This document shows, piece after piece, positions 41,241 to 43,031 of a DNA stretch of 64,000 nucleotides (its first letter is position 1; the number at the start of each line of letters is the position of its first letter). The DNA lies in NCBI GenBank assembly GCA_902576815.1, contig CACGWQ010000004.1, positions 22,798-86,797 of the forward strand. Direction: 5' to 3'. Below the pieces are notes generated by a model. That model did not search any database, had not been told where the DNA came from, and saw only the letters and a list, made by a program, of their open reading frames with translations. A program made the translations under genes and the position numbers. This DNA is from an uncultured Pelagibacteraceae bacterium (GTDB taxonomy: Bacteria > Pseudomonadota > Alphaproteobacteria > Pelagibacterales > Pelagibacteraceae).

Positions 41241-41309
41241 AAGTCAATTTTTCTCAAATATACTGCTTGCTAAATCAATAGTTAGGATTTAATTTGTTTT
41301 AAATATCAA

Positions 41310-41350
41310 GCGGGCATAGCTCAGTGGTAGAGCGTCTCGTTGCCAACGAG
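41310..41350 (+). pseudogene. Truncated tRNA-Gly(GCC): 5' part only
   Basis: These 41 nt are identical to positions 42957-42997, the acceptor 5' strand, D arm and anticodon arm of the intact tRNA-Gly(GCC). Identity extends 3 nt upstream. After the anticodon stem the sequence diverges and no T arm or acceptor 3' strand follows, although faint similarity (GTC, GGTT, CC) persists for about 25 nt. It cannot fold as a tRNA. Confidence 0.9.
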
Positions 41351-41543
41351 GTAGTCCTTGGTTTTTTATCCTTGCTAATCTTAGTCTTTCTCAACGTCTA
41401 GTTAATCTTGACACACTCACGACACACTTTGACACAGAAAAGAAAAATTATGGTGAGTGGAATAAAATATAATTGTAATTAAACTGTTACAAATTTTTCA
41501 TCTTGTTTTGATAACTTTTCAGAAAATCAAATAGGAATATATA
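41351..41543. other. Gene-free left flank of the tRNA-bounded cassette
   Basis: This is 193 bp between the truncated tRNA and the beta-propeller gene. It holds a decayed tRNA 3' half, GACACA-type repeats at 41410-41437, a 10-codon ORF (MVSGIKYNCN) that is probably meaningless, and an SD-like AGGAAT before the next gene. No integrase gene is seen. Confidence 0.6.
41410..41426 (+). repeat. Direct repeat GACACACTCACGACACA, left copy
   Basis: This 17-bp sequence recurs exactly at 42865-42881. A third GACACA follows at 41431. The copies lie inside the tRNA-bounded segment, 60 bp from the left tRNA part and 75 bp from the right tRNA, like arm-type sites of a tyrosine integrase. Confidence 0.85.
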
Positions 41544-42794
41544 ATGATAAAATTAATCTTAGCAGGCCTTCTGGCCTCAACTGCATTTGTTAGCACAGTA
41601 AATGCAGACTTTAAAGAAATTGGGAAATTTGGAACACCAGCAAATAACCCTAGTGCAGAAGAAACTTCAGCAGAAATAATTGCAGCAACAGCAGATGGCA
41701 TGAAACTGGTATATAGCGATAGCCCTGCAAACGCATTAGGCATGATTGATATTACTGATCCAGCAAATCCGAAACCATTAGGCCACATGCATTTAGGTGG
41801 TGAACCAACTAGTGTTGCAATCAAAAATGGACAAGCATTTGTAGGTATTAATACTTCTTTAAACTACGTAGAGCCAAGTGGTCACTTATTAATTGTTGAT
41901 CTTGACTCAGGAAAAGAAGTTACAAAAGTAGAACTAGGTGGACAACCAGACTCGGTTGCAGTTAGTCCAGATGGAACTTTTGTAGCAATAGCTATTGAAA
42001 ATGAACGTAACGAAGATATCAACGATGAAAAAATTCCACAACTTCCAGGAGGTTTTGTGGCAATCGTTAATTTAGCAGATAACAGTGTTACTAAAGCGGA
42101 CTTAGTTGGTTTTTCAACTATTGCTCCTAACGATCCAGAGCCTGAGTTTGTTGATATCAATAATTTAGGTGAAATAGTTGTTACTATCCAAGAGAATAAC
42201 TGGATGGCGGTTATTGATCGAAGTGGAAAAGTAATTTCAGAGTTTGATGCAGGACTAGTAACATTAGAAGGTGTTGACAATAAAAAAGACGGTGAACTAA
42301 AGATGGTTGATACCATTGAGAATGTTCGTAGAGAACCAGACGCAGTTAAGTGGATTGACAATGATCATTTTGCAACTGCAAATGAAGGTGACTATAAACA
42401 TGAAGCACCGGGTCAAGCAAAACGTGGTGGTAGTCGTGGATGGACAATCTTTAATAAAAATGGTTCGGTGGTATACGAGTCAGGTTCGTCATATGAAAGA
42501 GCACTCGCTTCAGCAGGTTACTGGCCAGAAAAACGTGCAGAGAAAAAAGGTGTAGAACCAGAGTCAGTTGAAGTAGCAATGTATGGTGATACACGTTATA
42601 TCTTTGTTGGTGCTGAAAGAGCAAATGCTATCGGTGTTTATAAAGCAAATGATTTAACAAACCCAGAATTAGTTACTATATTACCAACAGGTATTGGACC
42701 AGAAGGTTTAGTTGCAATTCCACAACGTAACTTATTTATAAGTGCTAACGAAAAGGACTTAGAGAAATCAGTTACAATTTATAGCTTAGATTAA
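41544..42794 (+). CDS. Exported beta-propeller protein (choice-of-anchor I-like)
   Basis: This 416-aa protein has a signal peptide (MIKLILAGLLASTAFVSTVNA before DFKEIG). Repeated blade-like segments follow: GMIDITDPANPKPLGH, LLIVDLDSGKEVTKVELGGQPDSVAVSPDGTFVAIA and IGVYKANDLTNPELV. It resembles periplasmic propellers of the choice-of-anchor I / mesenchyme-specific glycoprotein-like group, shortened. Base composition is clearly richer in GC than neighbours, and Arg is often CGT (CGTGGTGGTAGTCGTGG) where neighbours use AGA, suggesting transfer or high expression. It is the only gene of the tRNA-bounded cassette. Substrate unknown. Confidence 0.75.
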   Translation: MIKLILAGLLASTAFVSTVNADFKEIGKFGTPANNPSAEETSAEIIAATADGMKLVYSDSPANALGMIDITDPANPKPLGHMHLGGEPTSVAIKNGQAFVGINTSLNYVEPSGHLLIVDLDSGKEVTKVELGGQPDSVAVSPDGTFVAIAIENERNEDINDEKIPQLPGGFVAIVNLADNSVTKADLVGFSTIAPNDPEPEFVDINNLGEIVVTIQENNWMAVIDRSGKVISEFDAGLVTLEGVDNKKDGELKMVDTIENVRREPDAVKWIDNDHFATANEGDYKHEAPGQAKRGGSRGWTIFNKNGSVVYESGSSYERALASAGYWPEKRAEKKGVEPESVEVAMYGDTRYIFVGAERANAIGVYKANDLTNPELVTILPTGIGPEGLVAIPQRNLFISANEKDLEKSVTIYSLD

Positions 42795-42809
42795 TAACTA
42801 AATTTAACT

Positions 42810-42829
42810 TGTGGGGGCGTTAGCCCCCA
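42810..42829 (+). terminator. GC-rich hairpin after the propeller gene
   Basis: GTGGGGGC pairs perfectly with GCCCCCAC around GTTA, 15 nt after the stop codon. No T-run follows, so it may act as an mRNA 3' stabiliser as much as a terminator. It resembles the hairpins at 3934 and 48492. Confidence 0.7.
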
Positions 42830-42864
42830 CCATAAACTTTCATGTAAAGTTTTAAAAAAATCTC

Positions 42865-42881
42865 GACACACTCACGACACA
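42865..42881 (+). repeat. Direct repeat GACACACTCACGACACA, right copy
   Basis: Exact second copy of the 17-bp repeat at 41410-41426, preceded by a similar ATCTC/ATCTT. It lies 75 bp before the intact tRNA-Gly. Confidence 0.85.
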
Positions 42882-42914
42882 GTTGGTGATAAATTTTACT
42901 AATTTAACTAATAC

Positions 42915-42943
42915 TTGCATTTCTAAAAAGCGCTATCTATAAT
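42915..42943 (+). promoter_or_regulatory. tRNA-Gly promoter
   Basis: TTGCAT (42915-42920), 17 bp, TATAAT (42938-42943), ending 13 bp before the tRNA 5' end. It is among the best promoter matches in the window. The left tRNA fragment has only a poor equivalent upstream. Confidence 0.8.
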
Positions 42944-42956
42944 AGTTTTTTAACAA

Positions 42957-43031
42957 GCGGGCATAGCTCAGTGGTAGAGCGTCTCGTTGCCAACGAGAAG
43001 GTCGTGGGTTCGAGTCCCATTGCCCGCTCCA
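42957..43031 (+). tRNA. tRNA-Gly (anticodon GCC)
   Basis: The 75-nt cloverleaf is complete: acceptor GCGGGCA/TGCCCGC, D stem GCTC/GAGC, anticodon stem TCTCG/CGAGA with loop TTGCCAA, T stem GTGGG/CCCAT (one G-T pair) with loop TTCGAGT, discriminator T and encoded CCA. Its first 41 nt are duplicated at 41310. An FkbM gene starts 5 nt after the CCA. Confidence 0.97.

Follow-up and report, generated by a model that had tools for sequence, protein, structure and literature searches.

Cis-mobilizable elements and integron gene cassettes are units that lack an integrase, carry recombination sites, and are moved by an integrase acting in trans. Tycheposons were defined in Prochlorococcus (Hackl et al. 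2023, as cited by PMC12416821 and PMC10872708) and are described in the available text of PMC10872708 as being 4 to 200 kb long with a tyrosine recombinase. The same text assigns the islands with tRNA-Lys repeats to the Methylophilaceae, in which the last 20 nt of tRNA-Lys recur in the additive islands of Methylopumilus (fGI-2). In Pelagibacter AG-899-N21, lateral transfer of phnCDEubiE was reported, and adjacent tRNA genes and tyrosine recombinases were noted, in the available text of PMC12416821; the phosphate islands of HIMB59 have no tRNA at their boundaries (PMC10734472).

The window analyzed in this study is a 64,000-nt stretch from an uncultured Pelagibacteraceae (SAR11) bacterium. The unit at 41310-42997 of the window is very probably a non-autonomous integrative cassette that is moved in trans by a tyrosine integrase recognizing GACACA arms. 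It is bounded by an exact 44-nt direct repeat (41307-41350 and 42954-42997), both copies of which include the first 41 nt of tRNA-Gly(GCC). The cassette measures 1,647 bp from copy to copy, with a truncated tRNA-Gly(GCC) at one end and an intact tRNA-Gly(GCC) at the other, and its features are as follows.

41310-41350, + strand: attL-like site, truncated tRNA-Gly(GCC) (5′ 41 nt), remnant of the host gene; the 44-nt repeat begins at 41307
41351-41409, + strand: left inner end of the cassette (GTAGTCCTTGGTTT...), common to other Gly cassettes
41410-41436, + strand: left arm-type array, GACACA three times (at 41410, 41421, and 41431)
41473-41501, + strand: Pho-box-like triple direct repeat TTGTAAT-TAAA-CTGTTAC-AAAT-TTTTCAT with an 11-bp pitch, upstream of the cargo gene
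41544-42794, + strand: cargo gene for a 416-aa protein with a choice-of-anchor I domain, predicted β-propeller
42811-42830, + strand: GC-rich hairpin GTGGGGGC-GTTA-GCCCCCAC, 3′ of the cargo gene and kept among carriers
42865-42881, + strand: right arm-type pair GACACACTCACGACACA
42915-42943, + strand: promoter-like sequence TTGCAT-N17-TATAAT for the tRNA, cassette-borne, with a weak −35 match
42957-43031, + strand: attR-like site, intact tRNA-Gly(GCC), with a 5′ half of cassette origin, ending near 42997, and a 3′ half of host origin

The only ORF of the cassette is the cargo gene, and no integrase was found in its ORF and domain content. The GC content is 36% in the cassette interior and 38% in the cargo ORF, compared with 28.5% in the window. 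The 17-mer GACACACTCACGACACA occurs exactly at 41410-41426, 59 nt past the truncated tRNA-Gly copy, and at 42865-42881, 75 nt ahead of the intact copy. No other site with up to 3 mismatches was found in the window or in the rest of the genome, and 100 shuffles of the window gave no match. A third GACACA at the left end (41431) extends the motif to an array of three with 11- and 10-bp pitch. The initial annotation had described the exact repeat, the identical 17-mers inside both ends, and a single GC-richer cargo gene with no integrase, all of which were confirmed; the objection that it named, a 17-mer that is a common genomic repeat, does not apply, as the genome has two sites only. The hairpin at 42811-42830 is possibly a terminator, though it has no T-tract and was not listed by the terminator scan, and the consensus promoter scan did not list the sequence at 42915-42943. 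The truncated tRNA-Gly copy has decayed in carriers L021, L029, and L058.

The cargo protein has a signal-peptide-like N terminus and matches the choice-of-anchor I family (PF22494); its match to NF038117 is below the cutoff of that model, and its PHROG match is a family with no assigned function. It shares 55% amino acid identity over 394 aligned positions with a protein of cyanophage S-SM2 that is annotated as PhoA and encoded directly after pstS. On viral contig L374 (IMG/VR 3300017914_001598), an 86% identical relative of the cargo is directly followed by a PstS-like gene, called below the curated cutoff, and a peroxiredoxin gene. Among the matches listed in a BLAST search with the cassette, those to plasmids and to most phages other than cyanophages are tRNA matches. 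The AlphaFold model, built on a shallow alignment of nine sequences, is a β-propeller (mean pLDDT 74.5, pTM 0.81); its PDB matches are propellers of the WD type and one subunit of hydrazine synthase. The name alkaline phosphatase, which comes from the phage annotation only, was rejected for the cargo, since the model is a β-propeller and not the classical PhoA fold. A Pho-box-like repeat was present in 26 of 26 cargo copies, with the best 18-mer scoring 13 to 14 of 18; random 125-nt windows reach a score of 14 at a rate of 0.4%, although the box was first spotted by eye and this rate calculated afterwards. As the cargo copies are near-identical by descent, conservation of the box is weak evidence by itself. 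Judged from homology and gene neighborhood, the cargo is probably a phosphorus-scavenging gene, and it may act under phosphorus stress.

An exact scan of the genome collection for the 17-mer gave 63 stretches, 12 of which have a higher GC content, one motif each, and no called tRNA. The other 51 are low-GC SAR11 loci with copy-to-copy intervals of 0.8 to 5.2 kb; with the window counted in the tally, 27 have a tRNA-Gly half, 17 have a tRNA-Thr(TGT) half, and 7 have neither. The cassettes of the window and L033 (AG-916-P21) differ by one mismatch in 1,688 bp, whereas the flanks are unrelated (34-78% per 100 bp only); on the left, the identity ends where the tRNA starts (41309/41310), and on the right it ends within the tRNA 3′ half, at 43005. 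Among 18 carriers, including the window, the cargo is more similar than the neighboring genes in 153 of 153 pairs, with a median identity of 0.973 for the cargo and of 0.720 and 0.744 for the neighboring pterin dehydratase and purH segments, respectively. The cargo is 95-100% identical in many divergent hosts with different flanks, and the cassette is mobile and has spread recently between divergent SAR11 species. The 3′ half of the intact tRNA-Gly differs by host while the cassette is nearly invariant across carriers, which indicates that the tRNA 5′ half travels with the cassette and places the crossover in the anticodon arm or close to it.

At the locus of the window, a single tRNA-Gly with no truncated copy was found in all 40 genomes of the genus that were opened; these were hand-picked from 98 with a tRNA-Gly match, on contigs with enough upstream sequence, and therefore demonstrate empty sites and do not estimate prevalence. 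The comparison with relatives that the initial annotation had proposed thus turned up empty sites here and other cargo between the same ends elsewhere, and the stepwise decay of a plain tRNA duplication, which would have spoken against its reading, was not seen. The cassette has the partial-tRNA direct repeat at both ends, the intact tRNA at one end, the empty attB sites in relatives, and the sharp boundaries in carriers that characterize tRNA integrative elements, without an integrase of its own next to an att site. It also has the properties of a non-autonomous derivative, namely, no recombinase, retained att and arm sites, and recent movement.

At 44 of the 51 SAR11 loci, a Gly or Thr half-tRNA lies beside the motif, and the cargo varies. 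The tRNA-Gly cassette ends enclose phnD-phnC-phnE and a methyltransferase gene in L021 and L043 and sulfotransferase genes in L018 and L038; two kinds of tRNA-Gly cassette, phoA-like and phnCDE, carry phosphorus-related genes, as judged by homology. L038 (PAGT01000030), classified as Flavobacteriales MED779, has SAR11 gene content and order around its tRNA-Gly cassette and is probably mis-binned. The tRNA-Thr cassettes carry genes for small proteins and a trypsin-like peptidase, and four of these loci (L012, L014, L034, and L063) have three half-tRNA copies each and thus tandem units. Unlike the tRNA-Gly cassettes, which repeat the 5′ half of the tRNA, the tRNA-Thr cassettes repeat the 3′ half; in both, the anticodon arm is where the repeated segment stops, and roughly 55-75 nt separate the right arm array from the core. 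In L037 and L066, the tRNA-Thr cassettes adjoin prepilin-like (N_methyl) genes in tandem arrays. Nearly the same signal peptide (MKKLLGIVVLGLLL) is found on different small cargo proteins of the Thr cassettes L026, L027, and L063 and at L297:8141-8587, which suggests a reused start segment. GACACA arms also flank a unit at tRNA-Met in L242, and in L237-L239, from a second family of Pelagibacterales, variable genes enclosed by GACACA arm pairs lie between constant neighbors, beside a tRNA that Rfam detects (L239) and ARAGORN misses.

The seven SAR11 loci with no Gly or Thr half-tRNA show that some copies of the motif do not fit the simple cassette picture. Five of them (L011, L036, L039, L041, and L069) have a common chromosomal context, DUF1800-DUF1501-phoA-like, with tRNA-Gly on a separate contig in the three checked, and L030 and L057 have the same phoA-like arrangement with other neighbors. 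The phoA-like gene at these loci ends in the right-end motif of the cassette, directly followed by left-end-type sequence, an arrangement suggestive of fused cassettes or of an ancestral source.

In 397 Pelagibacterales genomes, GACACA-N5-GACACA has 75 matches, compared with 2 for the reversed pattern. A minority of the 75 (GACACAAATGAGACACA with an AAGTGA variant) share a gene context with no tRNA at the two loci opened (L254 and L255), and not all of the matches are therefore att arms. The GACACA triplet has 19 matches in 18 of 399 genomes of the genus, many with Thr-cassette sequence. GACACA triplets also lie near integrase genes in unrelated viral contigs of IMG/VR, and in several of these contigs another cluster of arms lies at a distance of about 205-265 bp; the computed spacing of the cassette arms across a circle junction would be 192 bp. 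It is mainly this proximity to integrases in unrelated contigs that leads us to call GACACA a putative arm-type site, to which an integrase would bind.

None of the 51 SAR11 17-mer loci has an integrase. When 397 genomes were searched with the integrase of L240, an element with GACACA arms and half a tRNA-Met, 29 gave matches, which were strong in about 20. Of 17 further integrase regions opened, 13 have a direct repeat that overlaps a tRNA call; L296 is the 14th with a repeat, which is 49 bp long and has no called tRNA. The integrase genes in these regions begin shortly after one repeat copy, and most elements have, as seen by eye, short repeats of about 11-bp pitch immediately before the start codon of the integrase gene and again inside the other end. 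The arm word, also read by eye, varies by element: GACACA in L240, GGTCGCA in L288, TGTCACA in L290 and L291, GACGTC in L292, CGGCACA in L295, GAGCACA in L296, GGGATGCA in L297, and TGCTCCA in L298. The integrase-bearing elements L303 (6.1 kb) and L297 (8.4 kb) are located in tRNA-Gly(GCC) with the same core, orientation, and arm geometry as in the window, whereas their arm sequences are of the GGTCGCA and GGGATGCA types. The first bases after the core, which belong to the left inner end of the cassette, are common to L303 and the window (GTAGTC-TTGGTTT). Like phage satellites, both L303 and L240 have genes for primase-like proteins. The left ends of the cassettes resemble those of the integrase elements, with cargo where the integrase would start.

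No element in which an integrase goes together with GACACA arms and a Gly or Thr core was found in the SAR11 genomes, at the 17-mer loci, or in IMG/VR. The exact 17-mer occurs in one IMG/VR contig (L009), which is unrelated, has 57% GC, and has no called tRNA; no IMG/VR contig combines the arm with a Gly or Thr core, and the search of IMG/VR with the L297 integrase gave no match. Among 93 IMG/VR loci scanned with the arm plus ATGGC, 4 have an adjacent integrase, and the AT-rich one of these (L385) has a tRNA-like stretch between the arms that is not the Gly or Thr core. No phage or IMG/VR contig with both matching arms and matching core was found. The genome of the window itself contains a second integrated element on contig C2, as judged from its gene content: the integrase at L200:7386-8492 is 34% identical to that of L240, adjoins a half tRNA matching the L302 repeat, and is followed by other element-like genes. 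No GACACA pair was found near it. A conserved SAR11 tyrosine recombinase of about 318 aa, the gene of which has glycosyltransferase-like genes nearby, was weighed as a possible helper encoded by the chromosome and is not favored because no GACACA arms are near it.

Several other histories could place such a unit between two tRNA-Gly copies. With frequent recombination reported in SAR11 (PMC12374537) and 41-75 bp of identity offered by the tRNA, the unit might have entered tRNA-Gly a single time, e.g., as a decayed prophage or satellite, and then passed from one tRNA-Gly locus to another through RecA-dependent homologous recombination or transformation. We regard this as unlikely: the identity between carriers ends at the tRNA edges, and hence no flanking tract was co-transferred, and exchange at one locus would not yield unrelated cargo in the same ends or the motif at tRNA-Thr and tRNA-Met units. 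As for decayed phage in general, the initial annotation had offered a prophage remnant as an alternative, which we rejected, since the cassette contains no phage structural or replication genes and its one cargo gene matches a PHROG family of no assigned function.

The likeness of the left ends to those of integrase elements, with cargo replacing the integrase start, and the decay of some left tRNA copies would also be expected of immobile remnants whose integrases were lost independently after integration. However, an integrase-less unit that is near-identical across many divergent hosts with different flanks must have moved after losing an integrase or without ever having one, which makes this explanation very improbable. 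A plain tandem duplication of tRNA-Gly with a gene inserted later between the copies accounts for two copies in the same orientation and little else; only the 5′ half is present twice, each end has arm repeats on its inner side, the relatives opened are empty, and the recurrence of the same ends in unrelated flanks refutes it, leaving it a negligible chance. Movement in trans of an integrase-less cassette remains the preferred reading. The interpretation of the two ends as attL and attR with arm-type sites and an anticodon-arm crossover, made in the initial annotation, is supported by the empty sites, the unrelated flanks, the other cargo, the integrase elements in the same tRNA, and the arm motif beside integrases. 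Its proposal of a non-autonomous integrative cassette is likewise supported, whereas the pelagiphage-type integrase that it suggested gained no support, the nearest SAR11 integrases being on elements of 5-8 kb, two of which (L303 and L240) have primase-like proteins.

With near-identical copies in distantly related SAR11 species and no enzyme to move itself, the cassette appears to hitchhike on the integrase of another element. On excision, the cassette would circularize and form an attP-like site consisting of the right arm, 75 nt, the 41-nt core of the tRNA-Gly 5′ half, 59 nt, and the left arm; the junction TATAATAGTTTTTTAACAAGCGGGC...GCCAACGAGGTAGTCCTTGG (right end, core, left end) would exist only in this circle or in a head-to-tail tandem. 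A tyrosine integrase from a co-resident satellite-like element or phage, acting in trans, would bind the GACACA arms and recombine the core with the chromosomal tRNA-Gly by crossing over in the anticodon arm. This would leave the host with a working tRNA, the 5′ half and upstream region of which are now cassette-derived, with the old 5′ half left as attL, and the restored tRNA would be driven by the upstream sequence of the cassette itself.

More tentatively, and leaning slightly to the side of doubt, we consider that the loci may represent a SAR11 cassette system in which small integrase-less units with a half-tRNA core and GACACA arms insert into a small set of tRNA genes (Gly, Thr, and probably Met) and can form tandem stacks at tRNA-Thr. 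Satellite-like elements would supply the integrases that move these units in trans, the choice of integrase being set by an arm-sequence code. Such a system would be integron-like, with tRNA genes for the units to dock at, and genes for phosphorus acquisition would be passed between species by it. SAR11 bacteria are among the most abundant in the ocean and have streamlined genomes, and the cassette is a concrete vehicle for gene flow among them. The cassette route would cover both the phnCDEubiE transfer (PMC12416821) and the spread of the phoA-like gene, almost unchanged, across divergent species, a prediction being that tRNA cassettes of 1.6-3.9 kb, carried by the integrases of other elements, can spread adaptation to phosphorus-poor water. 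GACACA-N5-GACACA beside a half tRNA can serve as the search motif for such cassettes.

No earlier description of these cassettes was found in the open-access literature searched, outside of which the tycheposon and VEIME papers lie, and their novelty is accordingly provisional. AG-899-N21 is the source of L043, which has a phnDCE and methyltransferase cassette at tRNA-Gly with GACACA arms; the cassette, its ends, and its relatives are not described in the available text of PMC12416821. Integron cassettes resemble those of SAR11 in lacking an integrase and, at tRNA-Thr, in forming tandem units, whereas in SAR11 a tRNA half with arm sites for a tyrosine integrase takes the place of the attC hairpin, and a platform integrase was not found. 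The islands of Methylopumilus fGI-2 are also similar in having recurring partial-tRNA repeats and variable cargo in a streamlined aquatic bacterium; they belong to another lineage and tRNA, and arm-type sites or the transfer of one identical cassette are not described for them in the available text. With tycheposons and tRNA-targeting phage satellites, the cassette shares the tRNA boundary, the metabolic cargo, and the marine streamlined host, and a related SAR11 element with an integrase and a primase-like protein (L303) occupies the tRNA of the window. On the other hand, at 1.65 kb, with one gene and no recombinase, it falls outside the size and recombinase content given for tycheposons in the available text, and it differs from both groups in itself supplying the tRNA 5′ half. 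The SAR11 elements L303 and L297 at tRNA-Gly(GCC) have their own integrases and other arm sequences, unlike the GACACA cassette, but match it in attachment core, orientation, crossover zone, and arm layout.
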